Assembly: GCA_020725335.1 (NCBI GenBank)
Contig: DYFF01000007.1
Coordinates: 124,001 to 188,000, forward strand
DNA: 64,000 nucleotides
Source of the DNA: Thermodesulfovibrio sp.
GTDB taxonomy: Bacteria; Nitrospirota; Thermodesulfovibrionia; Thermodesulfovibrionales; Thermodesulfovibrionaceae
Direction of reading: 5' to 3'
The notes beneath the pieces are model-generated. The model saw nothing but the letters and a program-made list of their open reading frames with translations. It was not told the DNA's origin and did no database searches. Position 1 is the stretch's first letter; each line of letters begins with the position of its first letter. Shown piece after piece: positions 2,553 through 20,501 of this stretch. A program made the translations under genes and the position numbers.

Positions 2553-4565
2553 ATGAACAAATTTAAAATTTATACTTCCTTTAAACCAAAGGGAGACCAG
2601 CCTAAAGCTATAAAGCAACTTGTTGAAGGAATTAAAAAGGGCTATAAACATCAGGTTTTACTTGGTGTAACTGGTTCAGGTAAGACATTCACTATTGCCA
2701 ATGTAATTGAAAAAGTAAAAAAGCCTACCCTTGTAATTGCCCATAATAAAACCCTTGCTGCTCAACTGTATGGAGAACTTAAGGAACTTTTTCCCTATAA
2801 TGCAGTGGAATATTATGTTAGTTACTATGATTACTACCAGCCTGAAGCCTATATTCCTGAAACAGATACCTACATTGAAAAAGATGCTTTAATTAATGAT
2901 GATATTGATAGAATGAGGCATTCTGCAACACTTTCAGTGCTTACAAGGCAGGATGTAATTGTAGTTGCCTCTGTGTCCTGCATTTATGGAATTGGCTCTC
3001 CTGATGATTATCTATCAATGCATGTCACCCTTGAAGAAGGCATGAAAACAGAAAGAGACGCCATGCTAAGAAAGCTTGTTGAAATACTTTACACAAGAGC
3101 AGAAGATGAATTTAGAAGAGGAACTTTTAGAGTTAGAGGAGATGTGGTTGATATATTCGCTTCTCACTGTCTTGACAAAGCATATAGAGTAGAGTTTTTT
3201 GATGATGAGATTGATACCATATATGAAATTGACCCTCTTACTGGAATTAGAATAAAAAGGCTTCAAAGAATATTTATTCCTCCGAACAGTCACTGGGTAA
3301 CTCCTGAGCCAAGACTAAAAAAAGCTCTTGAGACTATCGAGGAGGAACTGCAAGATAGAATTAAATATTTCAAAGAAAGAGGCGAAGACCTCTTTGCAGA
3401 AAGAATTGAAAAAAGAACACGATTTGACATGGAGCTTTTAAGCCAGTTTGGACATTGTCACGGAATTGAAAATTACTCAAGACACCTTAGTGGCAGGCTT
3501 CCTGGAGAACCTCCCTTTACACTTATAGATTATATTTATGCAGGACCATCAAAGGGAGACTTTCTTATAGTTATTGATGAAAGCCATGTTACTGTCCCTC
3601 AGATTGGAGGAATGTATGAAGGAGACCGTTCCCGTAAACAAACACTTGTTGAATATGGATTTCGTCTTCCCTCTGCTCTTGATAACAGACCTTTAACCTT
3701 TAAAGAGTTTGAGCACAGAATGAACCATGTGATTTATGTCTCCGCAACCCCAGGTGACTATGAGATAGAGAAATCAGAGGGAAGAATTGTTGAGCAAATA
3801 ATAAGACCCACCGGACTGGTAGACCCTAAGATTGAGGTTCGTCTTGCTTCTAATCAGGTAGAAGACCTTCTGGATGAAATTCATAAGAGAGTTAACAGAG
3901 GTGAAAGGGTGCTTGTTACAACCCTTACGAAAAAGATGGCAGAGGATTTAACAGACTACTATACAGGACTTGGCATAAAAGCTAAATATTTACACTCTGA
4001 TATTGATACCCTTGAAAGAGTAGAAATATTAAGAGATCTAAGACTTGGAAAGTTTGATGTTCTTATAGGTGTAAATCTTCTCAGAGAAGGGCTTGACCTT
4101 CCTGAAGTATCCCTTGTAGCAATATTTGATGCTGATAAAGAGGGATTTCTTCGTTCAGAAAGGTCTCTTATTCAGACAGCAGGTAGAGCTTCAAGAAACA
4201 TAAATGGCACAGTGATTTTTTATGCAGATAAAATAACAGACTCAATGAAAAAGGCAATTGAGGAAACTGAAAGAAGGCGTAAAATTCAACTTGACTATAA
4301 TAGAAAAAACGGCATTTCACCAGAAACAGTTAAAAGCAAGATAAAGGATATACTTGCTTCCATTTATGAAAGAGATTATGTGCATTTGGATTCAGTTAGA
4401 GAAGAGGTTGAGGATTATGAGATTACAGAGGAAAATATTAAAAAACTTGAAGCTGAGATGAAAAGAGCGGCGGAAAATCTTGAATTTGAAAGAGCTGCCG
4501 ATATAAGAAATAGAATAACGGCAATTAAAGAAAAAATTTTGCAAATAGGATTGAGAAAAAATTAA
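2553..4565 (+). CDS. uvrB: UvrB, excinuclease ABC subunit B
   Basis: UvrB is the damage-verifying helicase-like subunit of nucleotide excision repair. The 670-aa protein carries Walker A GVTGSGKT (residues 38-45), the Tyr-rich beta-hairpin [12 protein letters not shown] (about 92-103) that clamps [17 protein letters not shown], the [10 protein letters not shown] motif, the domain-4 helicase region with [12 protein letters not shown] and QTAGRASRN, and a C-terminal coiled UVR domain (about 630-665) that contacts UvrC. No residue looks missing. The ATG is 6 bases after hemB; no strong ribosome site is visible, so coupling to hemB is likely. The downstream gap holds the first attenuator-like leader. 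Confidence 0.99.
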
Positions 4566-4629
4566 AATTCTAAAGTTTTATTTTTCAATAGAAATTATCT
4601 TCAAATAAAGTCAGGAAAGATCATTTCAG

Positions 4630-4658
4630 TTGACATAACAATTTTTTTTGTGTTTTAA
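4630..4658 (+). promoter_or_regulatory. Sigma70-type promoter of TonB receptor unit 1
   Basis: TTGACA (4630-4635), a 17-base spacer and TTTTAA (4653-4658). The same hexamers with the same spacing stand before receptor unit 2 (8386-8414), although the spacer sequence differs. Conserved hexamers in an unconserved spacer support a real promoter. The start of transcription would fall near 4665, at the edge of the conserved leader. Confidence 0.65.
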
Positions 4659-4664
4659 TTTCTT

Positions 4665-4773
4665 AACCCACGAAGGGTAAACCTGGTCATGAAGGCCGTG
4701 GAAGGTATGAATCCTACCCACGGCTTTTTTTATGAATCGGACTCATGAAGAGTTCCAGTCTCTCTGAAGGGAG
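4665..4773 (+). promoter_or_regulatory. Attenuator-like leader RNA, copy 1
   Basis: A strong terminator hairpin, GCCGTGG (4695-4701) with CCACGGC (4718-4724), is followed by seven Ts (4725-4731). An upstream CCACG (4668-4672) can instead pair with CGTGG (4697-4701), the 5' arm of the terminator, which would break it: the logic of a riboswitch or attenuator. Two more hairpins follow, at 4739-4756 (ATGAA loop, one bulged T) and 4760-4773 (CTCTC/GGGAG, TGAA loop). The element recurs almost unchanged at 8421-8530 before the second TonB receptor. I do not recognise the class. From 4774 to the receptor's ribosome site I see only a TTTCTTAAGAAA palindrome. Confidence 0.65.
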
Positions 4774-4871
4774 CAAAAAATTCAGTAAAACAGGGAGGTG
4801 AGAGGGTATTTCTTAAGAAATTCTTGTTGAATAATCAGAAATTTTATTAAATTCCTTCAGGGAGGTGTTAG

Positions 4872-6881
4872 ATGGTCATGATCATTTTTGCCGTCATTCT
4901 AAGTTTATTTTTAATTGACAATGTCTATTCAGAGACTAAAAAAGAAGACTTCAGATTTCAGGAAATAACTGTTACAGAGTCAAAAATAGAGCAGACTCCT
5001 CAGGAGCAGACACATAAGGTGGATGTGGTGGATAAAAAGGAAATTGAAAACTTAAATCTTCCAAACAGAAATCTATCAGAATTAATTAAATACCTTCCTG
5101 GCAATTTTGTCAATCCACTATCCCGTAATGATGCTAATTGGGGCTCTTATGGAGGTCTGGGTCCTAAATACAATAGCTGGCTTCTTGATGGACTTCCTGT
5201 TGACTCATTTGTTGATCCAATGAGTCTTGATTTTGTATATCTTGACAGAATTGAAGTTCATAGAGGACCAGCCTCAGTTCTCTATCCAAATTATATGACC
5301 ATGGATTTTGCAGGAAATGAGACTCCCTTAGCTGGAATAACTAATTTGATAACAAAGGACAAAATTGAAAGACCATACACAAATATATCTCTTGGTTACG
5401 GAACATGGAATACAATAAATGCAAGGGTCTATCATGAGGGAAATGCTGGTCCCTTCAACTTTTTCCTTGGTGCAAACTATGAACAGTCTGACTATACAAA
5501 TTATGGAACAAAGCCTTCATGGCTTAATATGATAGATGACCCAGAATATAAAAAACTGAAGGGGTATTTAAAGACAACCTATTTCTTTACACCGGATTCA
5601 AAAATTTCTCTCTTCGTTCACCACACCAAACATGATGGAGATGCAGGAAGACCTCACAGAGGCTATGACCATCAGTATGATGTGGTAAATCTTAATTTCT
5701 CTACTCCACTTTTTAAAGACTTAATCTTAAGTGCAAAGGCAGGTTACAGATATTACCATCGCTCGTGGGAAGAGGATAACTACCCAGCAAATTTAAGCTT
5801 GCGCGAAGAAGATGGAGTAAAGCAAAATATCTATCCTTTTGATTTATCTATCAATTACAAACATCTTGGAAAAAGCGTTTTAACAGCAGGAGTTGATGCT
5901 CAGTTTTCTACCTATAAGACTTATGCTAAAGTGGGTGGTGATACAAGTACAGGGAATGATGTTAAAGCAAAGAGCTTTGGTGTTTATGCACAGGAAAAAC
6001 TTGTAATTGACAAATGGGTTTTAAGGGCTGGATTGAGATACAGTTACACAAAGCATGATTATGAAAGGCTTGGTGGGGTTGAGCCAGGTGTTTCATCAAA
6101 ATCCTGGGACCAATTAATATGGAGTGCTGGTGTGAGATATAACTTTACAGATAACTTTGGAGTATTCCTTAATGCAGGCTCAAGTTATCTTGTTCCTTCT
6201 GCAAAATCTGTGGGTGGAACACTTAAGGAATCAGATAGAGGAGTTCCGGGAAGAAATGGTCAACTTCCTAATCCTAACCTAAAACCAGAGAAAGGTTATA
6301 GTTTTGACATAGGTGCAGACATCTGGGCATTGAATAATTTATATTTTGGTATTAGAGGATTTTATCATATAACAAAAGACACCATAGTTGAAAATGTTGT
6401 CTTTACAACTCCTTCACAGAGCCAGTCAGTAAATGCAGGAAAGGCTTACACAAAGGGAGCTGAGTTTGAAGTTCAGCATTTTATCAGTGATAAATTTAAA
6501 TGCTTTGCAAACTTTACAGTAACTGACACAGAGGTTAAAAACTCCTTAGATAAGAATCAAGATGGCAGTGACATTCCTTTTGTTCCAGAGTTTATAGCAA
6601 ATGCAGGATTTACAGCAAATCTTCCTTATGGATTTACAGTGTCTCCTTATGTTCAATATGTAGGAAAATATTATGATAGCACTGATAAGACAAGTCGTAG
6701 GGATTTTGGAGAATATGCTACTGTGAATTTTAATGTAAAGAAAGAACTTTTTAGAACGGAAAAATATTACTCCAATTTGATTCTTGAGGTTAATAATCTC
6801 TTTGATAAAAAATATGTGATGCCATGGCAGTTTCAGGACCCTGGCTTCAATGCAATGCTGAGATGGGAACTAAACTTTTAA
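4872..6881 (+). CDS. TonB-dependent outer-membrane receptor, unit 1
   Basis: A 669-aa TonB-dependent receptor for energised uptake of a scarce ligand. A signal peptide (about 1-20) is followed by the TonB box EITVTES (31-37), a plug domain (about 45-165, with LLDGLPVD and IEVHRGPASVLYP) and a beta-barrel ending in aromatic F. A His-rich stretch (HHTKHDGDAGRPHRGYDH) lies in an early barrel segment, probably a loop, and might contact metal or ring ligands. NPNLKPE is present, but the FRAP box and the histidine typical of heme receptors between the boxes are not, so a heme ligand is not indicated. The ATG is set by GGAGGT (4861-4866). It is preceded by the attenuator-like leader and followed by a binding protein. 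Ligand unknown; a corrinoid, tetrapyrrole or metal chelate is inferred from context. Confidence 0.93.
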   Translation: MVMIIFAVILSLFLIDNVYSETKKEDFRFQEITVTESKIEQTPQEQTHKVDVVDKKEIENLNLPNRNLSELIKYLPGNFVNPLSRNDANWGSYGGLGPKYNSWLLDGLPVDSFVDPMSLDFVYLDRIEVHRGPASVLYPNYMTMDFAGNETPLAGITNLITKDKIERPYTNISLGYGTWNTINARVYHEGNAGPFNFFLGANYEQSDYTNYGTKPSWLNMIDDPEYKKLKGYLKTTYFFTPDSKISLFVHHTKHDGDAGRPHRGYDHQYDVVNLNFSTPLFKDLILSAKAGYRYYHRSWEEDNYPANLSLREEDGVKQNIYPFDLSINYKHLGKSVLTAGVDAQFSTYKTYAKVGGDTSTGNDVKAKSFGVYAQEKLVIDKWVLRAGLRYSYTKHDYERLGGVEPGVSSKSWDQLIWSAGVRYNFTDNFGVFLNAGSSYLVPSAKSVGGTLKESDRGVPGRNGQLPNPNLKPEKGYSFDIGADIWALNNLYFGIRGFYHITKDTIVENVVFTTPSQSQSVNAGKAYTKGAEFEVQHFISDKFKCFANFTVTDTEVKNSLDKNQDGSDIPFVPEFIANAGFTANLPYGFTVSPYVQYVGKYYDSTDKTSRRDFGEYATVNFNVKKELFRTEKYYSNLILEVNNLFDKKYVMPWQFQDPGFNAMLRWELNF

Positions 6882-7915
6882 AAAGAGTAGGGGACAGAGG
6901 AATCTGTCCCCTGTTTATTAAAATAAAAACTATAATTTTTTTATTTTTAACACTATATTTTATACTTATCTGCGAAACTTACGCTGAAATCAAAGTTGAA
7001 GATTTTAGAGGAAAAACTATTAAGTTGAGTAAACCAGCAGAAAGAGTTGTATGTCTTATTGAAAGCGCTCTTACTGGAATTTATATGTTAAAACAAGGGG
7101 ATAAAGTTATAGGTATCTCAACAAATGTTTACAGTGAAGGCTATTATTATAGTGATACTTTCAGATACTATGCTGCCTTAGATGAAAGAATAAAGTCAAA
7201 AAAAATTCCAGCAGTAGGTAACTGGGAGTCAGTAAATATAGAGAAAATTCTTTCCCTGAAGCCAGATTTAATAATAATATGGGCAAGTCAGAAAGATGCA
7301 ATTCAAACATTTGAAAAATTAGGGATTCCTGTTTATGGAGTTTTCATTACAAAGGTTGATGATGTTTTCAAGGAAATAAAAGACTTTGGCTTAATGCTTG
7401 ATGCCAGGGAGCGAGCACAAGAATTGATAGGATATGTAAAAAAGGAAATCAAGGAAATTGAAAATATTGCAAAAAAAATCAAAAATCATAAAAAAGTCTT
7501 TTTCAGTTGGGCACAGCATAGTTTCCTTCAGACATCCTGCAAGGGTAGTATTATTGATGAAATAATAAGCAAAGTTGGCGGAATAAACATATGTGGAAAT
7601 ATCGAGGCAGAGTCACAGAGTTTAACAATGGAAAAATTACTCAAACTTAATCCTGATGTGATAATAATGTGGTATGCTAAGGCATTGAGTCCTGAGGATA
7701 TAAAGAGAAACAATCAGTATAGAGCAATTAATGCAGTTAAATCGGGTTCAATTTATCAATTTGATGATACCTTTTTCTTTGATTTATGGACATTAAAATT
7801 CATCTACTCAATGAAATTCATTGCAAAGGCGGTTTATCCAGAGTTTTATAAGTTTGAACTCGATAAAGAAAAGAAGAAAACAATGCAATTTCTCTATGGA
7901 AAGCCTTTGATTTAG
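6863..7915 (+). CDS. Periplasmic ABC binding protein, BtuF/FecB type, unit 1
   Basis: About 350 aa in the helical-backbone metal-receptor fold that passes metal chelates or corrinoids to FecCD-type permeases. The hydrophobic signal segment is followed by KVEDFRGKTIKLSKPAERVVCL, the usual first strand of these proteins, and by paired motifs LSLKPDLIIIW and LKLNPDVIIMW. No ATG lies just before the signal peptide. The closest in-frame ATG is 6863, inside the receptor gene and upstream of a 9-bp perfect hairpin (6890-6911) that would be translated as part of the n-region; a CTG at 6911 is another option. No permease or ATPase accompanies it, so it probably shares those of unit 2. Confidence 0.85.
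   Translation: MGTKLLKRVGDRGICPLFIKIKTIIFLFLTLYFILICETYAEIKVEDFRGKTIKLSKPAERVVCLIESALTGIYMLKQGDKVIGISTNVYSEGYYYSDTFRYYAALDERIKSKKIPAVGNWESVNIEKILSLKPDLIIIWASQKDAIQTFEKLGIPVYGVFITKVDDVFKEIKDFGLMLDARERAQELIGYVKKEIKEIENIAKKIKNHKKVFFSWAQHSFLQTSCKGSIIDEIISKVGGINICGNIEAESQSLTMEKLLKLNPDVIIMWYAKALSPEDIKRNNQYRAINAVKSGSIYQFDDTFFFDLWTLKFIYSMKFIAKAVYPEFYKFELDKEKKKTMQFLYGKPLI
6890..6911. repeat. Perfect palindrome at the start of the unit 1 binding-protein gene
   Basis: GGGGACAGA (6890-6898), GGAA loop, TCTGTCCCC (6903-6911): a perfect 9-bp stem 8 bases after the receptor stop codon. It resembles REP-type palindromes scattered in bacterial genomes. No long T run follows, so it is a poor terminator, but it could stabilise the receptor message or limit translation of the next gene. 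Confidence 0.7.
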
Positions 7916-7924
7916 TTAAAAAAC

Positions 7925-8347
7925 ATGTTACAGAATAAAGTTGTGCAAGAGTATAGATTTAAACAAATTGGGTATATAAGAACAAATGCTGAAAAAATAC
8001 CAAGACATTGGAGTGTTTCTGATGTGGAAGGTGAGATTGTTATTGAGCCTGAGTATAAGCTTGGCTTAAGGGATATTAAGGCAGGTGACAGAATTGTGGT
8101 GCTTTTTGTTTTCCATAAGTCTTCTGTTTTTGGCCCTGAAAAACTCATTCAAAAACCACCTCATCTAAATGAAACAAAAGGTGTTTTTAGCACCTGTTCA
8201 CCCAATAGACCAAATCCTATAGGACTTTCAGTGCTTGAAGTATTAAATGTAGATGATAATGTAATCAAAGTTAAAGGAGTTGATATGTATGATGGAACAC
8301 CTATTCTTGATATAAAACCATATGTTGAGTATAAGAATGATAAATAA
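7925..8347 (+). CDS. TrmO/TsaA-like tRNA methyltransferase
   Basis: A 140-aa protein of the TsaA/YaeB/TrmO family, which N6-methylates threonylcarbamoyladenosine at position 37 of tRNA using S-adenosylmethionine. It matches across its length: IGYIRTNAEKIPRHW at the start, FSTCSPNRPNPIGLS (usually FATRSPxRPNPIGLS) in the core and MYDGTPILDIKPY near the end. It is shorter than E. coli TrmO (about 235 aa) and is essentially the core beta-barrel domain. It follows the binding-protein gene by 9 bases, so it sits in the unit 1 uptake operon. Short TsaA proteins beside metal-transport genes may have another substrate. Family certain, substrate not. Confidence 0.85.
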   Translation: MLQNKVVQEYRFKQIGYIRTNAEKIPRHWSVSDVEGEIVIEPEYKLGLRDIKAGDRIVVLFVFHKSSVFGPEKLIQKPPHLNETKGVFSTCSPNRPNPIGLSVLEVLNVDDNVIKVKGVDMYDGTPILDIKPYVEYKNDK

Positions 8348-8385: not shown

Positions 8386-8414
8386 TTGACAAAATAAATT
8401 TTATTATGTTTTAA
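8386..8414 (+). promoter_or_regulatory. Sigma70-type promoter of TonB receptor unit 2
   Basis: TTGACA (8386-8391), 17-base spacer, TTTTAA (8409-8414): the same hexamers and spacing as the unit 1 promoter. Transcription would begin near 8421, at the first base of the conserved leader. Confidence 0.65.
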
Positions 8415-8420
8415 TTTTTT

Positions 8421-8530
8421 AACCCACGAAGGGCAAACCTGGTCATGAAGGCCGTGGAAGGGATGAATCCCAACCACGGCTTTTTTTATGAATGTGACTC
8501 ATGAAGAGTCTCAAACCTCTCTGAAGGGAG
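8421..8530 (+). promoter_or_regulatory. Attenuator-like leader RNA, copy 2
   Basis: Second copy of the 4665-4773 element. The terminator stem is GCCGTGG (8451-8457) with CCACGGC (8474-8480), then seven Ts (8481-8487). The competing CCACG is at 8424-8428. Inside the terminator GGGA and TCCC extend the fold around a TGAA loop. Downstream hairpins are GACTC/GAGTC (8496-8510, ATGAA loop) and CTCTC/GGGAG (8517-8530, TGAA loop). Differences from copy 1 fall mainly in the inner terminator arm, loops and linkers, while the competing arms are identical. A palindromic repeat (8537-8616) follows, and then the receptor gene. Confidence 0.65.
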
Positions 8531-8536
8531 TAGAAG

Positions 8537-8616: not shown

Positions 8617-8654
8617 GATGAAATTTATGAAAACAGAGATATGGAGGGTTTGAG

Positions 8655-10853
8655 ATGGTTTGCTTGACTGTTTTTGTTATTGCTTTAATTTTATGCTGTT
8701 TTAATCCTGCTTGGGCAGAGCTAAAGGAAGAGGCAAAGCTTGAAGAGATTGTGGTGACAGCAACGAGAACAGAAACTCCTGTTGAGTCAGCACCTGGAAG
8801 TGTGAGCGTTGTTTCTAGAGAAAAAATTGAACTCAAATCTCCAAAGACAATTGATCAGACATTGAATGATGTTTCAGGCGTCTTTGTAAGAAGAAGTAAA
8901 GGCTTTATGGATACCCTATCATTTATAACTTTAAGAGGTGTACCAGAACAAAAAAGAACACTAATTCTTATGGATGGAGTAGTTTTAAATAATCCATATA
9001 CTGGGAATGTAAGAATGGGTGGGTACTATCCGGAAGACCTTGAAAGGGTCGAGGTTGTAAAAGGTCCTTTTTCCTCTCTTTATGGCGGGTATGCAATGGG
9101 TGGCGTAGTGAACTTTATTACTAAAATGCCTGAAAAAAGAGAGTTTACTCTTAAAACAGGATATGGCTCAAGTTGGGAGCGTGGCGAGGCAATGGATGAT
9201 ACAAGGAGGATTTATATATCATATGGAGATAAACTCTGGGATAAACTGAGCATGTTCCTCAGTTATGGCTGGCAGGGAACAAATGGTTATTCAACTGATT
9301 TGAATGTTCGTTCAAGCTGTCCCGCTGGTTATTCAGGCTGTGAAAAGACAAAGACAAGAGAGGGCAATACTGCTTATATTGTGGGTGACAAAGGAGACAA
9401 TCGCTGGTGGGATGATGGGATAAATATTAAAACACAGTATGAGTTTACAAAGGATACAAAAATAAATTTTTCATTTATGAGAAATCGTTATGAATATAAT
9501 TATGATGAACCACATACCCACTTAAAAGATGCTTTAGGGAATCTATATTATTTAGGCACAAGCGAATACACATTTTTTCCCGGCGCGGGTGGAAGAATTC
9601 AGAACAACTATGCCTTAGGTTTTGAGACAAAGCTTTACAGAGACATAAAAATTAAATTAAATCTATCTTACCTTGATACAGAAAAAGATTGGTATGTAAC
9701 AACTTCCTCACAGGCAACAAGATTTGGCTGTGGTTCAGATCCAACTAAATGTGGCTATGTATCAAATACACCAGCAAAAGCATATATGGCTGATTTGCAG
9801 TTTACCCTGCCAATTTTTAATAATCAGATTCTTACCTTTGGTGGCTCCTTCAGAAAGGGATACGCTAATACAGAGGAAGAATACTTAAAGGATTGGAGAG
9901 ATGAGACATCTACAACCACCTTGAAATATGAATCAAAAGGAAAGGACAGAACATATGCTATTTTCATCCAGGATGAGATAATGCTTCTTAATAATTTCAC
10001 TGCGTACATTGGTTTCAGACAGGATTGGTGGAAGACTTATGATGGATTCGCAAACGATGTTGGAAAGACTGGTTATCCAAAGGATTATCCTTCAAAAACA
10101 GCATCATCTTTTAGTCCAAAATTTGCTCTTGTCTATAAACCCTTTGAGATGACCACTTTGCGTGGTTCTATAGGAAAAGCCTTCAGACCGCCTACAGTTT
10201 ATGAGCTATATAGAACTTGGACCTCTTCTACTGGAACTACTTATGCGGGGAACCCTGCTCTTGAGCCAGAGAAGGTTATATCATGGGATATAGGGATAGA
10301 ACAAAAACTCTGGAAAGGTGCTAAGGTGTCTTTGACATACTTTGAAAACTATATTAAAGATTTAATTTATCGTAAAAGAGTTACATCCACCTATCAGGAG
10401 CTTGTGAATGTTGGAAAGGCAGAATCAAGAGGCATTGAGTTAGAGATTGAGCAGAGATTTGAAAAATGGTTGAGACTCTTTGGAAATATTACCTATACGG
10501 ATTCAGAGATAAAGGAAAATGAAGTAAAACCCGAGACTGTTGGATATAGACTCACCTATACTCCGCTCTGGAGAGCAAACATTGGTGCTGAATTTGAAAA
10601 ATCGGGTTTCTCCGCAATAATTGTTGGAAGATATGTTGGTAAATGGTATTCAACTGATGACAACTCCGACTATGTTAAAAATGTATACGGCTCCTATGAC
10701 CCCTATTTTGTTGTAGATGGTAAAATTGCCTATCAATTTACAAAATTTGCAAAACTTAGCTTTTCAGTTGACAATATATTTGACAGAAAATACTATCAAT
10801 ACTACAGAGCACCAGGTAGGTCATGGTTTACAGAGCTTACATTAAAGTTTTAG
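8655..10853 (+). CDS. TonB-dependent outer-membrane receptor, unit 2
   Basis: A 732-aa TonB-dependent receptor with a signal peptide ending near residue 21, TonB box EIVVTAT (31-37), a plug (about 40-165; LILMDGVVLNNPY, VEVVKGPFSSLYGGYAMGG) and a barrel ending in LKF. Two cysteine pairs, in SSCPAGYSGCEK and FGCGSDPTKCG, probably form disulfides in extracellular loops. FRPP and NPALEPE boxes are present, but no histidine lies between them, unlike heme receptors. GGAGGG (8643-8648) sets the ATG. The last 31 bases overlap the binding-protein gene, so uptake genes are coupled. Ligand inferred to be a corrinoid, tetrapyrrole or metal chelate because CobN/ChlI/ChlD follow. Confidence 0.95.
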   Translation: MVCLTVFVIALILCCFNPAWAELKEEAKLEEIVVTATRTETPVESAPGSVSVVSREKIELKSPKTIDQTLNDVSGVFVRRSKGFMDTLSFITLRGVPEQKRTLILMDGVVLNNPYTGNVRMGGYYPEDLERVEVVKGPFSSLYGGYAMGGVVNFITKMPEKREFTLKTGYGSSWERGEAMDDTRRIYISYGDKLWDKLSMFLSYGWQGTNGYSTDLNVRSSCPAGYSGCEKTKTREGNTAYIVGDKGDNRWWDDGINIKTQYEFTKDTKINFSFMRNRYEYNYDEPHTHLKDALGNLYYLGTSEYTFFPGAGGRIQNNYALGFETKLYRDIKIKLNLSYLDTEKDWYVTTSSQATRFGCGSDPTKCGYVSNTPAKAYMADLQFTLPIFNNQILTFGGSFRKGYANTEEEYLKDWRDETSTTTLKYESKGKDRTYAIFIQDEIMLLNNFTAYIGFRQDWWKTYDGFANDVGKTGYPKDYPSKTASSFSPKFALVYKPFEMTTLRGSIGKAFRPPTVYELYRTWTSSTGTTYAGNPALEPEKVISWDIGIEQKLWKGAKVSLTYFENYIKDLIYRKRVTSTYQELVNVGKAESRGIELEIEQRFEKWLRLFGNITYTDSEIKENEVKPETVGYRLTYTPLWRANIGAEFEKSGFSAIIVGRYVGKWYSTDDNSDYVKNVYGSYDPYFVVDGKIAYQFTKFAKLSFSVDNIFDRKYYQYYRAPGRSWFTELTLKF

Positions 10854-11818
10854 TATTATTAATAACTTTAGTAGTGGTAGGGGTAGCTTCTGCCTCTACC
10901 ATTACTGTAACTGACAAACTCGGAAGGAAAGTGTCTCTCAATGTGCCTGTTAAAAGAGCTGTTGTTGTCATTTCCTATGAGCTAATACCTGCATTAAATT
11001 TATGGAGTCAGGTTTCAGGAGTTTCCCGGTGGGCTGAGGAAAATTGTGGACTTTATAAGGCAATTGTTACTGAGAATCCTTCACTTAAAAGATCGATAGT
11101 TGGTGCAGGAAGCGATTTAAATGTTGAAGGTGTGCTTAAGCTCAATCCAGATTTGGTCATAACATGGACATACAATCCTGATACAATAAAATTTCTTGAA
11201 GAAAGAGGAATAAAAGTAATTGGAATGTATCCAGAAAGTCTTTCGGAGTTATATAAAGACATGAGAATGCATGGAAAGCTTTTTGGAAAAGAAAAAAAAG
11301 TGGAAGAAGTAATCAAAGAGATGGAAAAAATATTTAAACTCGTAAGTGAAAGAGTCAGCAAAATACCTTCTCAAAAAAGAAAAAAGGTCATTCATCTTGG
11401 TGGAGCACCAACAAGGGTCTCAGGAGCACTGGGAGTTACAAATGATATAATAAAAATCGCAGGTGCCATTAATCCTGCTGGAACAATTATGCAAAGGCAT
11501 ATTGATGTATCTGTGGAAAAAATAATTCAGTGGAATCCGGATATTATATTTATCTGGGGCTCTGCAGGATATGATGAATTATGGCTGTATAACAATTCCC
11601 AGTGGAGATTTATTAATGCAGTTAAGGAACAAAGAGTATATAAACTGCCAAGGTGGTCTACATGGTCACCAAGACTTGCTATAATTTTACTTTACATGGC
11701 AATGAAGATTTACCCTGAGACATTTACTGATATTAAATTTGAAAGCATAGCTGATGATTTCTATAAAAAAGTATTCGGAATATCCTATTATAAAGTGAGA
11801 CAGTATGAAGGGTTTTAA
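10823..11818 (+). CDS. Periplasmic ABC binding protein, BtuF/FecB type, unit 2
   Basis: 331 aa. A signal peptide (about 8-25, ending VASAS) leads into ITVTDKLGRKVSLNVPVKRAVVV, the standard opening of FecB/BtuF-type proteins, with LKLNPDLVITW and IQWNPDIIFIW as the paired strand motifs of the two lobes. It binds a metal chelate or corrinoid in the periplasm and docks on the permease encoded next. It overlaps the receptor gene by 31 bases and the permease gene by 14. It is only distantly alike to the unit 1 binding protein, so the two may bind different ligands for the same transporter. Confidence 0.92.
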   Translation: MVYRAYIKVLVLLITLVVVGVASASTITVTDKLGRKVSLNVPVKRAVVVISYELIPALNLWSQVSGVSRWAEENCGLYKAIVTENPSLKRSIVGAGSDLNVEGVLKLNPDLVITWTYNPDTIKFLEERGIKVIGMYPESLSELYKDMRMHGKLFGKEKKVEEVIKEMEKIFKLVSERVSKIPSQKRKKVIHLGGAPTRVSGALGVTNDIIKIAGAINPAGTIMQRHIDVSVEKIIQWNPDIIFIWGSAGYDELWLYNNSQWRFINAVKEQRVYKLPRWSTWSPRLAIILLYMAMKIYPETFTDIKFESIADDFYKKVFGISYYKVRQYEGF

Positions 11819-12806
11819 AAAACTCTTAATTTTTCTATCTCCTTTCATTGTTGCGTGGCTATCTCTTTTTCTCGGCGCATACGGAGTAACACCCTTGTTG
11901 GTTATAAAAATACTTTTAAACGAGACATTTCACATTTTTGATATAGGGGATATTCCAGAAAAAGCAATCGTTATTGACATAAGGCTTCCAAGAGTAATCC
12001 TTGCAGGGCTTGTTGGTGCTGCTCTTTCCTGTTCAGGAGTCACTTTACAAGGAATTTTCCGAAATCCCCTTGTTGACCCCTTTATACTTGGTATTTCAGC
12101 TGGTGCAGCCTTTGGATGTGCTATAACAATTGGATTTTTGAGCTTTCTTCCACTTCAACTTACGGCTTTCATTTTTGCCATAGCAGCAGTTATGGTTGCT
12201 TATGGAGTTGCAAGGACTCAGGGAGAGGTTTCAAGACTTCCCCTTATTCTTTCAGGAGTGATCGTTTCAGCCTTTTTTACTGCTATGGTTTCAATAGTAA
12301 AATTTCTTGTTGATCCCCACAAACTTCAAAGTATTGTTTACTGGCTCATGGGAAGTTTTAGTCTTGCAGACTGGAGGTCAGTAAGAGTAGCATTATTAGG
12401 AGTATTAGGTGGAATACTTCCAATTTTTCTTATGCGATGGAGACTTAATGTTATGAGCATGGGAGAGGAGGAAGCGAAGGCTTTAGGTGTAAATATAAAA
12501 AGAGAGAGATTACTTTTTATAGGATTTTCAACCCTTGCTGTGGCAGTGGCTACTTCTCTTTGTGGGATAATTGGTTGGGTGGGACTTATGGTACCACATC
12601 TTGTAAGGATGCTTACAGGACCGGACCATAAAACGCTTGTTCCTCTGAGCATAGCTGCTGGTGCAGCCTTTATGATTGCTGCAGACACTGTTTCAAGAAC
12701 ACTTACAAGTTTTGACATTCCTGTTGGAATAATCACTGCACTTACAGGAGCGCCATTTTTCATATATCTTATGAAACGCGGCGGGAAAGAGGCATGGGGG
12801 AAATAA
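11805..12806 (+). CDS. FecCD/BtuC-type ABC permease
   Basis: A 333-aa inner-membrane permease with about ten transmembrane segments. Family motifs are RLPRVILAGLVGAALSCSG and NPLVDPFILGISAGA in the first half and GWVGLMVPHLVRMLTGPDH near the cytoplasmic coupling helices that meet the ATPase. Only one permease gene is present, so it should work as a homodimer, as BtuC does. The ATG overlaps the binding-protein gene by 14 bases. The ATPase gene is separated by about 240 bases holding two palindromic repeats. Confidence 0.95.
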   Translation: MKGFKKLLIFLSPFIVAWLSLFLGAYGVTPLLVIKILLNETFHIFDIGDIPEKAIVIDIRLPRVILAGLVGAALSCSGVTLQGIFRNPLVDPFILGISAGAAFGCAITIGFLSFLPLQLTAFIFAIAAVMVAYGVARTQGEVSRLPLILSGVIVSAFFTAMVSIVKFLVDPHKLQSIVYWLMGSFSLADWRSVRVALLGVLGGILPIFLMRWRLNVMSMGEEEAKALGVNIKRERLLFIGFSTLAVAVATSLCGIIGWVGLMVPHLVRMLTGPDHKTLVPLSIAAGAAFMIAADTVSRTLTSFDIPVGIITALTGAPFFIYLMKRGGKEAWGK

Positions 12807-12856
12807 TAGATATTTTCAAAGAAAAGGTTTTTTCATGTTATTCCGAAAATTTTATT

Positions 12857-12923
12857 TGTCATTCCGAAAGAAGTGAGGAATCTAATCATGAGGAGACCCT
12901 TTGGCTTTGCCTCAGGGTGACAG
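12857..12923. repeat. Imperfect palindromic repeat of the GTCATTCCGA family, copy B1
   Basis: Left arm TGTCATTCCGA (12857-12867) and right arm TCAGGGTGACA, ending at 12922, pair imperfectly; a GAGGAATCT core lies inside. It is the first of two tandem copies between permease and ATPase genes. Confidence 0.6.
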
Positions 12924-12932
12924 TGAAGGATG

Positions 12933-13024
12933 CTGTCATTCCGAGGAACATAAGCGACGAGGAATCTACTCCTCTGTTAATCAACTCAGAGATTCCTCCG
13001 GAGCTTGACTTCATCGGCATGACA
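12933..13024. repeat. Imperfect palindromic repeat of the GTCATTCCGA family, copy B2
   Basis: Outer arms CTGTCATTCCG (from 12933) and CGGCATGACA (13015-13024) pair with one mismatch over about 10 bases. Inner arms GAGGAATCT (12959-12967) and AGATTCCTC (12990-12998) pair perfectly over 9. With B1 it fills almost the whole gap before the ATPase gene and ends about 20 bases before its ATG. Confidence 0.65.
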
Positions 13025-13043
13025 ATTGGTAACAGAGCAAACA

Positions 13044-13814
13044 ATGCTTAGCATAAAAAACATATATTTCAGACACAGGGAAAAAGGAGAAGATAATCTT
13101 AAAAGCATAAGTTTTAATGCAGAGAGGGGAGCTCTCACCACAATACTTGGTCCCAATGGTTCAGGTAAAACAACGCTTTTTAAATGCATTTCTGGCCTAT
13201 GGAAGTATTACCGAGGTGAGATTTTTTTTGATGGAAAGCCCATTGATAAACTGTCATTCAGAAAGAGGGCAAGAATATTTTCTGTAGTCCCGCAGGAGCA
13301 TGAACCACCTTTTCCATACTCTGTCTTTGATGTTGTATTAATGGGAAGGGCAAGCTATGTAAGTGTTTTTTCCTCACCAGGGAAAAGGGATTATGAAATG
13401 ACTGAAAATGCTTTAAAAACAGTAGGAATTGAACAACTAAAAGATAAACCTTATACAAAAATTAGTGGTGGAGAGCGTCAACTCACTTTGATTGCGAGAG
13501 CACTTGCACAGGATACCCCTGTAATACTCCTTGATGAACCTACGAGTCATCTTGATTTTAGAAATCAGATAAATGTGCTTAAAAAAATCAGAGAGATTGC
13601 GAGAGATAAAGCTTTAGTGGTAATTATGACCCTTCATGATCCAAATCTTGCCGGGCTTTTTTCTGATAAGGTGGTGGTTATTAATTCTGGAACAAAGATA
13701 GCAGAGGGTAAGCCAGATGAGATTATTACAGATAAGCTGATAAAAAATGTTTATGACGTAGAAGTAAGAAAAAGCAATATTAATGGACAGAGTATAATTT
13801 GTCCAGTGCTATAG
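13044..13814 (+). CDS. ABC transporter ATPase, FecE/BtuD type
   Basis: About 256 aa. It shows Walker A GPNGSGKTT, a Q-loop (VVPQEHE), signature ISGGERQLTLIARALA, Walker B VILLDEPTSHLD and switch His in TLHDPN. Together with the preceding permease it forms the single complete importer of the cluster. I chose ATG 13044, which gives the usual MLSIKNIYF start, over a TTG 18 bases upstream that runs into the palindromic repeat. CobN part A follows after 10 bases, with AGGAGG between. Confidence 0.95.
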   Translation: MLSIKNIYFRHREKGEDNLKSISFNAERGALTTILGPNGSGKTTLFKCISGLWKYYRGEIFFDGKPIDKLSFRKRARIFSVVPQEHEPPFPYSVFDVVLMGRASYVSVFSSPGKRDYEMTENALKTVGIEQLKDKPYTKISGGERQLTLIARALAQDTPVILLDEPTSHLDFRNQINVLKKIREIARDKALVVIMTLHDPNLAGLFSDKVVVINSGTKIAEGKPDEIITDKLIKNVYDVEVRKSNINGQSIICPVL

Positions 13815-13824
13815 GAGGTATCGT

Positions 13825-16212
13825 ATGCTCAAGATTTTAGCCATTGTATGGCAGAGTTATTACAATATTATTCTTCGGACATCAAAAAATATAAAAGACT
13901 TATCTCTGAAAGTATACTCAGCAAGAGTTCTTGATTCTGAACCTCAAAGGCTTGAAGAAGTTTTCAAAGAAATAGAGGAGGCTCAGATTATCTTTCTTTA
14001 TCGCTCAAATGAAACTGTTTGGGAGGAGATTGAGAAAAGAATAAAAAGCGAACAAACAAAGGCAAAAGTTGTCTGTCTCGGACATGATCCATCATACTGG
14101 ATGCTTTCAAATGTAGAGCCTGAACTTCTGAGTAAGGCATACAGCTATCTTGTTATAAATGGTGAAAAAAACGTTACCAACATGTTCAGATTTATTGTAA
14201 ATAAGCTGTTAGATAATGATATTTCCTACGAAGAGCCTGAGCAAATTCCCTGGGAGGGGCTTTATCATCCTGAAGCGGATAGAATTATTACCGATATTGA
14301 TGATTATTTTAATTGGTATAAAATGAAAGATGCTCCAACACTGGGCATTCTCTTTTCCAGACATCACTGGATAAATGGAAATACAGAGGTTGAAGATTTA
14401 TTGATTAAAAAGCTTGAGGAAAGGGGATTCAATGTAATTTCAGCATTTGCTTATTCTGTAAAAGACCGTGCTCTTGGCACAAAGGGAAGCGGAGAAGTTG
14501 TGCTTGAGTGGTTTATTGACGGAGAGGGAAAGCCAAGAATAGAAGGATTTATTAAGCTAAGTTCGTTTTTTCTCGGAACAAGCAGAGAGAAAAGAATGGA
14601 TAATACTGATGTAGCCTCTGATGGAGTTGAGATTCTTAAGAGGCTTAATGTGCCTGTTTTTTGTCCTGTAAGTTCCTACTATAAAACCGTTGATGAGTGG
14701 GAAAAAGAGGAACTTAATCTTGATATAGGCTGGAGCATTGCTTTGCCAGAGTTTGAGGGAGTTATTGAGCCAGTAATAATTTCAGCACAGGTTGAAGGAG
14801 AAGAGTCTGAAAGAAGAAAGATGCCTATTAGGGAAAGAGTAAACAAATTTGTTGATAGAATCTGCAGATGGATTGAACTTAAAAGGACTCCGGTTAATGA
14901 AAGAAGGATTGCTTTTGTCCTCCATAACAATCCCTGTGCTTCTGTTGAGGCAACAGTTGGCTCCGCAGCTCATCTTGACAGCCTTGAAAGCGTTGTTGAA
15001 ATTATGAAGAGAATGAAAGAGGCCGGATATACAGTAAATCCTCCGGAAAGCGGAAAGGCACTGATTGATGAGATAATGAGCAAAAAGGCAATATCAGAGT
15101 TCAGATGGACCACAGTGGAAGAAATAGTTGAAAAAGGCGGTGCCATTGCTTTTGTAGATAAAGAAAAATACAAGGAGTGGTTTAACGAGATTCCTGAAAA
15201 AACCCGTTTGCGTATGATTGATTCATGGGGTGAACCACCCGGGGAGCATAAAAACGGAATACCTCCTGCAATGGTTTATAATGGCCAGATTGTAATAACT
15301 GGGTTAAGATTCGGAAATGTGCTCATAATGGTTCAGCCAAAGCGTGGCTGTGCAGGAGCAAAATGCGATGGTCAGGTTTGTAGAATTCTCCATGACCCTG
15401 ACACTCCTCCGCCACATCAGTATATTGCAACATACAAGTGGCTCAGTCATGAGTTTAAAGCCCATGCAGTTGTGCATGTGGGAACTCATGGAAACTTAGA
15501 ATTCTTGCCGGGGAAAGGTGTTGGTTTAAGTTCAGCCTGCTTCCCCGATATATCTATTGATACTTTGCCTCATCTTTATATCTACAATGCTGACAATCCT
15601 CCAGAAGGCACTATTGCAAAGAGGCGTAGCTATGCAGTACTTGTTAATCACTTGCAGACAGTGCTTACCGAAGGTGGGCTTTATGATGAGCTAATGGAAC
15701 TTGACAGACTTCTTGGTGAATATGAGGAGACAAAAAGAAAAGAACCTGCAAGACTTCATACGCTTGAGCATATGATAATCCATGCAATAGCCAAAGCAAA
15801 GCTTGACAAGGAGATAAAAATCCTCTGGCATGGTAGAAAAGTGTGTCTTTCTGAGCTAAGTCATGAGGAATTACATCAGATTCCCTTTGAAAAAATCATT
15901 GAAGAAGCACATGCAAAGCTTTCTCTTATAAGAAATACTCAGATTCAGGATGGAATGCACGTATTTGGAAAACTGCCTGAAGGTGACAGAAGAGTAGATT
16001 TTATATACTCAATAATGCGATATGATGCTGGACAGGAGATTTCCCTTAGAAAGGAGATAGCAAAACTGCTTGGATATGATTGGGAAGAAATTTTAAGTAA
16101 TTCTCAAAAAATTGATCCTCTCACCGGTAAAGCCTTTGGAGCCATTTCTGAAGAGATAGATAAAATCGGTAAAGAGCTTGTAAAGAAAGTTTTAATGGAG
16201 GTCTCAGTATGA
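13825..16212 (+). CDS. CobN-type chelatase, N-terminal and central part (split gene, part A)
   Basis: 795 aa matching the first two thirds of CobN/BchH large chelatase subunits, which hold the tetrapyrrole while ATPase partners drive metal insertion. The core block VQPKRG...HDPDTPPPHQY (about 503-533) leads into VVHVGTHGNLEFLPGK (549-564), the active-site motif with His551, His555 and Glu559. A C-x4-C-x4-C cluster (Cys509, Cys514, Cys519) is inserted just before it. Part B overlaps by ATGA and supplies the rest; together they total 1284 aa, about one full CobN. Metal and ring are unknown: cobalt insertion into hydrogenobyrinate is the family archetype, while related HmuS proteins act in heme uptake loci. 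AGGAGG before the ATG. Confidence 0.9.
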   Translation: MLKILAIVWQSYYNIILRTSKNIKDLSLKVYSARVLDSEPQRLEEVFKEIEEAQIIFLYRSNETVWEEIEKRIKSEQTKAKVVCLGHDPSYWMLSNVEPELLSKAYSYLVINGEKNVTNMFRFIVNKLLDNDISYEEPEQIPWEGLYHPEADRIITDIDDYFNWYKMKDAPTLGILFSRHHWINGNTEVEDLLIKKLEERGFNVISAFAYSVKDRALGTKGSGEVVLEWFIDGEGKPRIEGFIKLSSFFLGTSREKRMDNTDVASDGVEILKRLNVPVFCPVSSYYKTVDEWEKEELNLDIGWSIALPEFEGVIEPVIISAQVEGEESERRKMPIRERVNKFVDRICRWIELKRTPVNERRIAFVLHNNPCASVEATVGSAAHLDSLESVVEIMKRMKEAGYTVNPPESGKALIDEIMSKKAISEFRWTTVEEIVEKGGAIAFVDKEKYKEWFNEIPEKTRLRMIDSWGEPPGEHKNGIPPAMVYNGQIVITGLRFGNVLIMVQPKRGCAGAKCDGQVCRILHDPDTPPPHQYIATYKWLSHEFKAHAVVHVGTHGNLEFLPGKGVGLSSACFPDISIDTLPHLYIYNADNPPEGTIAKRRSYAVLVNHLQTVLTEGGLYDELMELDRLLGEYEETKRKEPARLHTLEHMIIHAIAKAKLDKEIKILWHGRKVCLSELSHEELHQIPFEKIIEEAHAKLSLIRNTQIQDGMHVFGKLPEGDRRVDFIYSIMRYDAGQEISLRKEIAKLLGYDWEEILSNSQKIDPLTGKAFGAISEEIDKIGKELVKKVLMEVSV

Positions 16213-17678
16213 AAATTCTTGACAGAATAAACTGGCAGGACCCAAAATGGAAATCAATAAAAGAAAAAATTCTTGAACTTAACAGAAAGATTGAGCAATC
16301 AAAGGAGATTGAATCGCTTCTTAGCGGTTTTGATGGTAGTTACATTCCCCCAGGTCCATCAGGACTTATAACAAGAGGAAGAGATGATGTTTTGCCTACA
16401 GGAAGGAATTTTTACAGTCTTGATCCCCATAGAGTTCCTACACGAATTGCCTTTGAGATAGGGAAAAGGCTTGCTCAGAAACTAATTGAAAAGCATCTTG
16501 CTGAAGAGGGTAGATACCCTGAAAATGTGGCAGTATACTGGCAGTCTACAGACATAATGTGGGCAGATGGAGAAGGAATGGGTCAAATTATGTATCTTCT
16601 TGGTGTAAAACCCAAATGGCTTTCAAATGGAAGGTTGAAGGGCTTTGAGATAATTCCACTTAGTGAACTTGGAAGACCTCGTATTGATGTAACAATAAGG
16701 GTTTCTGGTATTACAAGAGATAATTTTCCTATGTGTATTGAGCTTATTGATGAAGCAGTGCAGCAAGTAGCTGCTCTTGATGAGCCAGAGGAGATGAACT
16801 TTGTGCGAAAACATATCTTAGAGCAAATGGCTCAGAACGGTGTGGATATGCGGTCTGCCACATTGAGAATATTTTGCTCTATGCCTGGAACATATCAGGC
16901 TGGAACTCAGCTTGCAGTCTATGCTTCTGCCTGGAAGGAAGAAAAAGACCTTGCAGAGGTTTTTCTTTATTGGAACGGTTATGCTTACGGAAAAGGCATA
17001 TGGGGCGAAAGCAAACACAGGGAGTTCGCAAGCATTCTTAAAAGTGTTGACATCACCTATAACAAAGTTGTCTCCGATGAATACGACCTTTTTGGATGCT
17101 GCTGCTCCTTTGGCACATACGGAGGAATGACTGCTGCTGCAAGGCATTTAAGCGGTAAGGAAGTTAAAACCTACTATGGAGACACCCGCAATCCCGACAA
17201 TGTTGAAGTAAGGGACCTTGCTGACGAAATAAGAAGGGTGGTCAGAACAAAGCTTCTCAATCCAAAATGGATTGAGGGAATGAAAAGACATGGATACAAA
17301 GGGGCTGGAGATATCTCAAAAAGAATTGGTAGAGTCTACGGATGGGAGGCAACAACAAAAGAGGTTGATGACTGGATTTTTGATGACATAGCAAGAACAT
17401 TCATGATGAATGAGGAAAACAGAAAATTCTTTGAAGAGCATAATCCATGGGCAATGGAGGAAATTGCCCGTAGACTTATTGAGGCAATGGAAAGAGGACT
17501 GTGGAATCCAGCAGAGGATGTAAAAGAGGCATTGAAAGCAATTTATCTTGAGATTGAAGGCTGGATTGAGGAGAAAATGGGAGAGACAAGGGGAAGTTTT
17601 CAAGGAGGCTCAATTGATATAGTAACAGCAGAGGAAGTTCAGTACTGGAGAGACAAGATGAAGGAGGTAATTAAATGA
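16209..17678 (+). CDS. CobN-type chelatase, C-terminal part (split gene, part B)
   Basis: 489 aa equal to the C-terminal third of CobN. It contains [19 protein letters not shown] (39-57), [13 protein letters not shown] (61-73), [15 protein letters not shown] and the [13 protein letters not shown] / TYYGDTRNP block, with [13 protein letters not shown] further on. Three adjacent cysteines (297-299) precede YGGM. The start ATG overlaps the stop of part A (ATGA), so the two parts should be made in equal amounts and assemble. Nothing suggests decay: both halves are intact and meet at a plausible domain border, so this is a clean split and not a frameshifted pseudogene. chlI begins 4 bases before its stop codon ends. 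Confidence 0.9.
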
Positions 17679-18685
17679 TTTTTCCTTTTACTGCTGTTGT
17701 TGACCAAGAGGAGATGAAACTTGCTCTTATCTTGAATGTTATTGACCCAAGCATTGGTGGTGTTTTGATAATGGGGGAGAAGGGCACGGCTAAATCAACA
17801 ACTGTTCGTGCTCTTGCTGATTTACTTCCTGAGATAGAGGTTATTAAAGGATGTAGATTCAGTTGCTCACCTCAAGGTCCTTTTTGTAGTGATTGTTTGG
17901 AAAAGATTGAAAACGAAGAAGCCTTAGAAACCGAAAAGAAAAAAATGCGGGTTGTAGAGCTTCCTTTAGGGGTTACAGAAGACAGAGTCGTAGGCAGTCT
18001 TGATATTGAGCATGCAATAAAAAGAGGAGAGAAACGATTTGAGCCGGGAATTCTTGCTGATGCAAACAGAAACTTTCTTTATGTTGATGAGGTAAATTTG
18101 CTTGAAGACCATATTGTTGACCTTTTGCTTGACTCTGCTGCTATGGGAATAAATACAGTGGAAAGAGAAGGTGTTTCCTTTGTTCATCCTGCAAGATTTA
18201 TTCTTGTAGGCACTATGAATCCTGAGGAAGGAGAACTTAGACCTCAGCTTCTTGATAGATTTGGGCTATGTGTGCAGGTTAATTCAATAAGGGATAAAGC
18301 ACTAAGAGTTGAAATTTTAAAGAGAAAAGCAGAGTTTGATGATGACCAAAAGGGTTTTTATAAAAAATGGCGAAGTGCTCAAAAAGAGCTTGCAAAAAGA
18401 ATTATTAATGCAAAAAAAAGACTCAAAAATGTAGTAATCACTGAAAATTCAGTATCAGCAGTTGTTGACATTACAGCAGAGCTTAGTCTTGATGGACATA
18501 GAGCAGATATAGTTATGCTTAAAGCAGCAAGAGCTTTTGCAGCATTCAGTGGAAGAGCCGAAATAACCCATGAAGATATAAAAAAGATTGCTCCGCTTGC
18601 CCTGAGACATAGACTTAAAAGGCTTCCCTTTGAGGATATCTCACAAGAGGCAGATAAACTTCATGCAATACTTGAAAGAATATAA
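17675..18685 (+). CDS. ChlI/BchI-type AAA+ chelatase ATPase
   Basis: 336-aa AAA+ motor of Mg- or Co-chelatases. Walker [10 protein letters not shown] (34-42), Walker [10 protein letters not shown] (about 134-142) and the arginine-bearing FDDRFG-like segment [11 protein letters not shown] are present. A four-cysteine group (Cys60, Cys64, Cys71, Cys74) sits after the first lid, in a place where many bacterial homologues have cysteines. ChlI rings bind ChlD rings and hydrolyse ATP to drive the CobN/ChlH subunit. It overlaps CobN part B by 4 bases and chlD by 23. No CobS/CobT genes are present; ChlI/ChlD are expected to replace them. Confidence 0.93.
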
Positions 18686-20501
18686 AATAAACTTTTTCAA
18701 CTTTGTAAATCAGGAAAATGCCAAACTTGCTCTCTTACTTAATTTAATCGAGCCAAAATCTGGCGGAGTTTTACTTGCAGGAAAAAGAGGCACAGGGAAG
18801 TCAACCCTTCTTAAAGCATTTTGTCAGATTTTAAAACAGTTAAGTATTCCTTCTGTCCAACTTCCAATGAATGCAACTGAGGAGGCAGTTTTAGGGGGAA
18901 TTGATATTGAAGAAACAATTAAAACTGGTAAAAGAGTTTTTCAGAAAGGTCTTCTCTCAAGGGCAGATGGAGGGTTTTTGATTATTGAAGATATTAATCT
19001 TTTTCCACAGGATATTCTTTCAATTGTTTTTGAAGTTCAGACAAGAGGAGAAAATATCATTGAAAGAGAGGGAATTACTCTTAGAGAGCCTGCTCAGCTC
19101 CAGATTCTTGCTACAATGAATCCTGAAGAGGCTGACTTTTCAGCACACTTTCTTGACAGATTCGGCATGTGTGTAATAATGGATGAAATAAGGGATAAAG
19201 AGAAGAAAGCAGAGATAATGCAGTTAAATACTTTGGATGAATGCTACTTTACAGAAAAATGGCAATCATTTAAAAAATTCCAAAATTACAGAGAGTTTAC
19301 AAAAAAAGTTAAAGTTTCAGATGAAATAAAAGAATTTATTTCTGAGTTAGTTTTAAAAGAAGCTGTTTCAGGGCATAGAGCAGATATTTATCTTTATTAT
19401 GCATCAAAAGCTTTTGCTGCTTACAGAGAAGAGGATAATGTAACTGAGGAACATATTAAAGCAGTAGCACCTTTTGTTTTAAATCATAGAAGAAGGCTTC
19501 TTGAACAAGAACCAGAGGAAACAGAACAAGAGCAAAAACATAAATCACATGATTCAGAAAGAAGAGAAGAGCAAAAGTACAGAGGACAAAAAAATCCTTT
19601 ATCCAATCCTCAAGAATCGCAGGGTGGAAAATCTCAAAATATTCCATCTATTGAAAAAGAAGAAATTTTTCCAGTTGGTGAAAGTTTTAAAGTCAAAAGA
19701 TTATTTTTCAAAAAAGATAGAATAATTAGGCAAGCAACTGGCAGAAGAACAAAGACAAAGACAAAGACAAAGGGTAGGGGAGGTAGATACATAAGAAGTC
19801 TTCTCAAAGAAAGACCAGATATTGCAATTGATGCAACCTTAAGGGCAGCTGCGCCTTTTCAAAAAAATAGAGGGAGGAAAGATACAGTTGTTATTTTTGA
19901 TGATGATATAAGATACAAAGAAAAAGAAAGAAGAATGAGCCATACTGTAATTTTTGTCGTTGATGGTTCGGGTTCTATGGGTGTAGAGCAGAGAATGAAG
20001 GCTGTAAAAGGAGCAATTCTCTCTTTACTTTTAGATTGTTATCAAAAGAGAGATAGAGTTGCCATGATTGTTTTCAGGAAAGACAGAGCAGAAACAATTC
20101 TTCAACCAACTTCATCTGTAGAACTTGCTCTTAAAAGACTTAAGGAAATTCCAACTGGCGGTAAAACTCCTCTGGGAGCAGGACTTTTAGAAGCATACAG
20201 GCTAACAAGAAGATTGCAACTAAAACAGCCGGAAGCTCGTTTTCTTGTTTTGTTAATTACTGATGGAAAAGCAAATGTATCATTAAGTGGAAAAAATACT
20301 TTTGAAGAACTTAGAGACATTTGCTTTTTGCTAAAGGATATTCCCTCTACTGACTTTATTCTTATTGATACGGAAAAGAAAGATAATCTTATCAAGATGG
20401 ATTTAGCTTTCAGACTGGCACAATGGCTACAGGCAAGATATTTTTTAATAGAAAAACTTAAATCAGAAACTCTATTTCAAATAGCAACTTCATTAAAGTA
20501 A
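18663..20501 (+). CDS. ChlD/BchD-type chelatase subunit (AAA+ plus VWA domain)
   Basis: About 612 aa. An N-terminal AAA+ domain (about 1-260; Walker [10 protein letters not shown]) is followed by a charged, Glu/Gln/Lys-rich linker (about 275-400) and a C-terminal von Willebrand A domain with MIDAS motif DGSGSMG (from Asp434), [10 protein letters not shown] and LITDGKAN. The VWA domain contacts the large chelatase subunit through Mg2+. I take ATG 18663 (GAGG 16 bases upstream) over a TTG at 18630, because [19 protein letters not shown] is the normal start of the fold. It is the last gene of the cluster. Walker A appears intact, so this subunit may itself bind ATP. Confidence 0.92.

Follow-up and report, generated by a model that had tools for sequence, protein, structure and literature searches.

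Tandem-hairpin leader RNAs before nickel/cobalt uptake genes of Thermodesulfovibrio and other bacteria: a candidate two-stage switch operated by a protein, possibly CooT

Among riboswitches, the guanidine-II (mini-ykkC) RNA has tandem hairpins that repeat one loop: its two small hairpins have ACGR loops and can act at the Shine-Dalgarno (SD) sequence. RNA control is tied to nickel and cobalt in the NiCo (czcD) riboswitch, a large four-way-junction aptamer before efflux genes, and nickel ABC and ECF importers and TonB receptors are targets of NikR, a DNA-binding repressor. CsrA/RsmE, a dimeric beta protein of about 60 amino acids, reads ANGGA in hairpin loops, often in several hairpins. Target RNAs of ANTAR proteins (eut, nasF, amiE; TwoAYGGAY-like RNAs) consist of two tandem short-stem hairpins with free stems and a short linker; their conserved hexanucleotide loops have A at position 1 and G at position 4, and the second hairpin overlaps an intrinsic terminator (PMC3369931).

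The window analyzed here is a 64,000-nucleotide stretch of a Thermodesulfovibrio genome (contig DYFF01000007.1), for which a preliminary description had proposed a duplicated leader with a shared promoter, acting as a terminator/antiterminator switch before two TonB-receptor units and perhaps responding to a metal. Alignment confirmed that positions 4630-4773 and 8386-8530 are true duplicates with 88-89% identity, including a promoter-like TTGACA...TTTAAT (4630..4659 and 8386..8415; all features given here lie on the + strand), which is kept in the genus alignment, the one of copy 1 being absent from the consensus-scan list. Each copy contains GCCGTGG...CCACGGC followed by seven Ts, a strong intrinsic terminator (4695..4731 and 8451..8487) that folds better than its dinucleotide shuffles (z -2.8 and -3.2; whole leader, z -2.4 and -3.9). 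The two copies differ in the inner terminator arm, the linkers and the spacer, again as described.

An alignment of 19-24 homologues resolved four small hairpins with look-alike loops in each leader, so that the conserved block reaches further than first described, into H3 and H4. The hairpins form two pairs, H1-H2 and H3-H4, with [A]NGAA loops and variable stems; their consensus is ACCC-A[CA]GAA-GGGT (H1), GGTC-A[TC]GAA-GGCC (H2), GACTC-A[TC]GAA-GAGTC (H3) and CTCTC-[TA]GAA-GGGAG (H4, with an AAGAA loop in some). In the window, H1 reads ACCC-ACGAA-GGGT in copy 1 (4666..4678) and CCC-ACGAA-GGG in copy 2 (8423..8433); relatives have the stems TAACC/GGTTA, AATCC/GGATT or AAGCC/GGCTT, and the loop is still ANGAA. 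H2 is GGTC-ATGAA-GGCC in both copies (4685..4697 and 8441..8453), H3 is GGACTC-ATGAA-GAGTTC (4739..4755) or GACTC-ATGAA-GAGTC (8496..8510), and H4 is CTCTC-TGAA-GGGAG in both (4760..4773 and 8517..8530). The GGCC that forms the 3' arm of H2 doubles as the start of the terminator 5' arm, so H2, the proposed antiterminator, and the terminator are mutually exclusive, and both are conserved, as in an attenuator built on an intrinsic terminator.

Pfam confirmed the TonB-dependent receptors behind both leaders. The first (4872..6881; PF00593, 1.5e-43, and PF07715) is followed by a periplasmic binding protein of the BtuF/IsdE/FecB type (6824..7915; PF01497). The second (8655..10853; PF00593, 3.4e-59) leads into genes for a FecB/BtuF-type binding protein, a FecCD permease and an ABC ATPase (10823..13814; Pfam) and for a CobN-type chelatase in two frames (795 + 489 aa) with ChlI/ChlD-like ATPases (13825..20501). 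The two chelatase frames (13825-16212 and 16209-17678) overlap, and each half of the CobN profile is matched by a different one of them; the split may reflect either two natural subunits or a frameshift. A trmO-like gene (7925-8347) lies between the two receptor units, and another adjoins a relic leader (L050, near 4653) in the genome G013.

The preliminary description had assigned the antiterminator to a CCACG/CGTGG pairing. This pairing does form in both window copies (-8.9 kcal/mol), but it is not conserved: where the H1 loop of a homologue is AAGAA, the terminator arm stays CCGTG, and without compensation the pairing drops from -8.9 to -3.1/-1.5 kcal/mol. The conserved competitor of the terminator is H2 and not the CCACG pairing. 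A leader peptide (MKAVEGMNP.HGFFYE.DS) could likewise be encoded across the terminator in both window copies, but in most homologues its frame is broken or runs into an early stop. Attenuation through either this peptide or the CCACG/CGTGG antiterminator therefore has next to no likelihood.

The second hairpin pair has an alternative partner of its own. The 5' strand of H4 (e.g. CTCAAACCTCTC) can instead base-pair with the SD region immediately 5' of the receptor start codon (GGAGGGTTTGAG), so H3-H4 and the SD helix are alternatives in the way that H1-H2 and the terminator are. In copy 1, the anti-SD strand (4756..4772) and the SD region of the first receptor (4852..4867) form a 16-bp helix in the minimum free energy (MFE) structure, with a duplex energy of -21.7 kcal/mol; in copy 2, the anti-SD strand (8511..8523) pairs with the SD region of the second receptor (8634..8653, GGAGGGTTTGAG), as seen in the MFE helix and the covariation test. 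Across homologues the two partners change together (CTATACC/GGTATAG in L047, CTTAAGCC/GGCTTAG in L041, CTCAATCC/GGTTGAG in L036). Pairing energy was -19.2 kcal/mol for native partners, -16.3 kcal/mol when partners were swapped between leaders and -8.6 kcal/mol when shuffled; native pairs beat swapped ones with a permutation p of 5e-5 (n=18), a value that ignores kinship among leaders. A single leader is predicted from these pairings to combine two switches, one acting on transcription and the other on translation, that share their recognition signal. Copy 2 has a repeat-like insert (TGTCATCCTGAAGG...GGAATGACAGGATGA; 8536-8630) between H4 and the SD region, seen also in L033, L037 and L039, which leaves the SD-sequestering pairing intact.

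Our sample comprised 16 Thermodesulfovibrio genomes, and all 11 near-complete ones searched carry one to three copies before TonB receptors. The terminator, H3 and H4 covary in the genus alignment, and single leaders show compensatory changes in H1 and H3: L048 has the stems ATCC/GGAT and GACTT/AAGTC, and L051, a remote paralogue with an unrelated terminator stem, has AACC/GGTT and GGCC/GGCC with the same loops. In 25 tandem units from four kinds of leader, A-N-G-A-A is essentially invariant, eight of the nine stem pairs vary on both sides, and the linker between the hairpins is short and constant. Two-sided stem changes occupied 58 cells against 19.7 in shuffled units, and the covariation score was 0.80, reached by none of 500 shuffles, against 0.27; the covarying homologues that the preliminary description wanted sought by model thus exist. 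We also considered AGCC-N5-GGCT as a DNA operator and rejected this reading because the spacer, i.e. the loop, is conserved while the half-sites vary. Two degenerate copies (L050, G013:C7:45203; L049, G003:C1:1674815) have no intact TonB gene behind them, and in G013 cooT is found within 1 kb of the degenerate copy.

Scanned with Rfam 15 at gathering score, neither the window nor any of 15 related loci matched a family other than a tRNA, with cobalamin, GEMM, NiCo, guanidine-II and Moco among those unmatched, in line with the earlier view that the leader stands outside known classes, and a permissive scan of 4500-4900 gave chance-level matches only. A literature search, mostly without subscription journals and preprints, found no description of the element; the family is apparently widespread and undescribed. 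With the ANTAR targets it shares all the features of layout listed above, including the overlap of the second hairpin with the terminator, but its loops are pentaloops (ANGAA) or tetraloops (NGAA) rather than A1/G4 hexaloops, its hairpins also serve at the SD region and its regulon concerns nickel and cobalt. A search of the source genome for the ANTAR domain (PF03861) gave no match, as did the search control in every genome. The layout favors control by an ANTAR-type antiterminator protein and the loops speak against it; we consider it very improbable. Guanidine-II RNAs resemble the leader in their two small hairpins and like loops, but in H1-H3 the second loop position is A, C or T, followed by G-A-A, and the genes differ. 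Loop shape and the number of hairpins recall CsrA/RsmE sites, with GGA there and GAA here. The NiCo riboswitch shares the metals, and NikR the kinds of target gene.

Further copies were sought with two models, R1 for the full-length leader and R2 for one 35-nt tandem unit. R2 detected more copies before TonB-system and transport genes, also outside the family. The source genome itself has the signal at three further genes, encoding a SAM methyltransferase (C7 near 18999, L083), a conserved 19-aa Cys-rich peptide preceded by three ATGAA hairpins of which the third abuts the SD sequence (C6:106222, L098), and an OprB-like porin (C18:195181). In other families of the order, the element precedes TonB (G134, G361), a porin-CbiMNQ operon (G055, G199, G172), a UreH-like transporter (G212), a TonB receptor (G079) and a peptide resembling the 19-aa one (G399); transporter names in these leaders were read from sequence, and the Pfam check covers the 97-gene set described below. 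The G079 leader has an SD-sequestering pair of its own (CTCCTAAG/CTTAGGAG). Weak R2 matches in G245, G291, G064, G155 and G182 were set aside as apparently lying inside coding sequence, about four chance matches being expected (E 0.01, 396 genomes), and reverse-strand R1 matches reflect the terminator palindrome.

A SAM-dependent methyltransferase with the signature FWN..AKWYKLW.EH recurs behind the element, at L083, L089, L090, L225, L232 and L234. The 19-aa peptide (MIKKVSGKAMPTCKCK[GSN]SC) is conserved in G000 (C6:106222, L098), 14 other genus genomes and G399 (L175), with codon changes that are mostly synonymous (687 vs 175 pairwise differences); two peptides of this kind had no Pfam match, and the peptide is possibly metal-binding. 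TonB and the UreH-like transporter both bear the element in some species (L087, L230, L172), which suggests a single regulon spanning the entire import path.

Many of these further leaders differ from those in the window in which hairpin competes with the terminator. In the window's type I leaders, H2 shares a strand with the terminator; in type II, H1 (AAGCC-A[CT]GAA-GGCTT) does, and it is H1 to which the 3' arm of the terminator is complementary. A pattern scan of 84,980 species genomes returned at least 116 stretches with H1 and a complementary terminator arm. They come from Nitrospirota, Desulfobacterota, Firmicutes and Spirochaetes and represent more than 100 genomes, these counts being lower bounds. 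Pfam assignments of the next gene for the 97 type II leaders listed were CbiM (22), TonB receptor (17), PDGLE (12), methyltransferase (9), DUF4198 (5), SBP_bac_5 (5), FmdE (3), TonB (2), CobN (1) and FecCD (1). Among these, the element thus precedes nickel/cobalt importers in distant lineages, the copies before TonB and CobN genes that had been looked for are present, and the wider context of uptake genes supports the early guess of a metal signal. By this context, the genes behind type II leaders form a nickel/cobalt uptake regulon, NikA-like proteins included. As the pattern fixed H1 and left the inner hairpin free, conservation of H1 in this set is not independent evidence, whereas gene context is. 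AGAA, AGCA and ATGAA, closed by a C-G pair, are the inner loops seen most often; many Desulfobacterota leaders have other loops than [A]NGAA there, and the tandem character is weaker in them.

Clustering of the neighbors of the 116 listed type II loci identified CooT (PF10133, 62-69 aa) in seven loci, about 0.3 being the estimated chance expectation for this amount of DNA, and DUF3842 in nine. At L268 the leader stands directly before cooT, at L225 and L199 cooT lies inside the leader-headed stretch, and at L257, L285 and L295 it is just upstream of the leader; in G012, a few hundred bases separate the leader from the start of a DUF3842-cooT pair. This gene pair is conserved across Nitrospirota, including the source genome. 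CooT is reported to be a dimer that binds one Ni with a Kd of 9 nM and whose function has been called unclear; Rhodospirillum rubrum without CooT needs added nickel (PMC6006190). Of the 49 genomes with a leader, 44 encode CooT, against 182 of 396 (46%) in Nitrospirota and 93 of 299 (31%) in the phylum of Sporomusa; the five in which it was not found are four MAGs and one Phascolarctobacterium. Within the order of Thermodesulfovibrio CooT is near-universal, so co-occurrence there says little. No NikR was detected in any of the 11 genus members searched (187/392 in the overall Nitrospirota sample), nor in ten other leader-bearing Nitrospirota, a few of which may fall outside because this sample is four genomes smaller. 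Common descent and a nickel-using, anaerobic way of life confound the comparisons for CooT and for NikR alike. A structure search with a CooT model was confident only for CooT structures (Z 12.3, 9.2), with RimM and Hfq weak (Z 4.7, 3.0); CsrA was absent from the matches, which excludes nothing. We infer from the gene neighborhoods and the co-occurrence that CooT is the best candidate sensor for these leaders.

The energies suggest how such a leader could work. Terminator stems reach -16/-21 kcal/mol and the SD duplex about -19 to -22 kcal/mol, compared with -2.4/-4.1 for H1, -3.1 for H2 and -2 to -6 kcal/mol for the leader hairpins overall. Since both alternatives are far more stable than hairpins of 3-5 bp, the default state would be OFF, with the terminator formed and the SD sequestered, and a loop-binding factor would be needed for ON. 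By gripping the loops of a hairpin pair, this factor would keep the hairpins shut, preventing termination and freeing the SD. Because the genes import metal, it should act at metal scarcity. We therefore regard the leader as probably an RNA switch for nickel/cobalt uptake that a protein operates at two stages, with CooT, possibly together with DUF3842, as the best candidate. CooT is a dimer of about 63 aa that holds a single Ni at its subunit interface; in the apo form it would bind the RNA, and Ni binding would break this contact. More tentatively, the apo-CooT dimer may clamp the tandem ANGAA hairpins, antiterminating and freeing the ribosome-binding site, as a widespread RNA-level replacement of NikR. 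At the peptide leader, where the third hairpin abuts the SD, binding would speculatively have the opposite sign and repress the Cys-rich peptide at low metal.

Two other ways of reading the loops have to be weighed against this. Another protein, e.g. DUF3842 alone or a general RNA-binding protein, could operate the hairpins in nickel/cobalt uptake; DUF3842 is the conserved neighbor of cooT and the more frequent of the two at the listed loci, and RNA binding by CooT is itself a prediction, but of this pair it is CooT for which nickel binding and dimerization are known. We give this reading perhaps one chance in a handful or slightly better. Direct binding of Ni2+/Co2+ or a related ligand by the paired loops, after the manner of guanidine-II, fits the wide phylogenetic spread, the small conserved loops, the nickel/cobalt genes and the mini-ykkC precedent, but it is unlikely on several grounds. 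If metal stabilized the hairpins, uptake would be ON when metal is plentiful, the reverse of what import genes need unless the ligand is another; each hairpin conserves only some 5 nt, the second of which is free, and this offers little for a selective metal pocket; and the linkage to CooT would be left unexplained. Low-metal activity is what import genes require, which an apo-protein fits better than a metal-binding RNA, and identical loops repeated in tandem hairpins are more suggestive of binding sites for a protein than of a ligand pocket.

A published survey detected NikR in fewer than half of the bacteria that carry NikABCDE (PMC2667541). The leader may explain nickel-uptake control in many NikR-less bacteria, and with more than 100 genomes in at least four phyla and a candidate nickel-binding partner next door, this control becomes directly testable. 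The reading put forward here would give CooT and the uncharacterized DUF3842 a function, and the same hairpin-pair signal at the terminator and the SD of one leader would be an unusual two-lock design.
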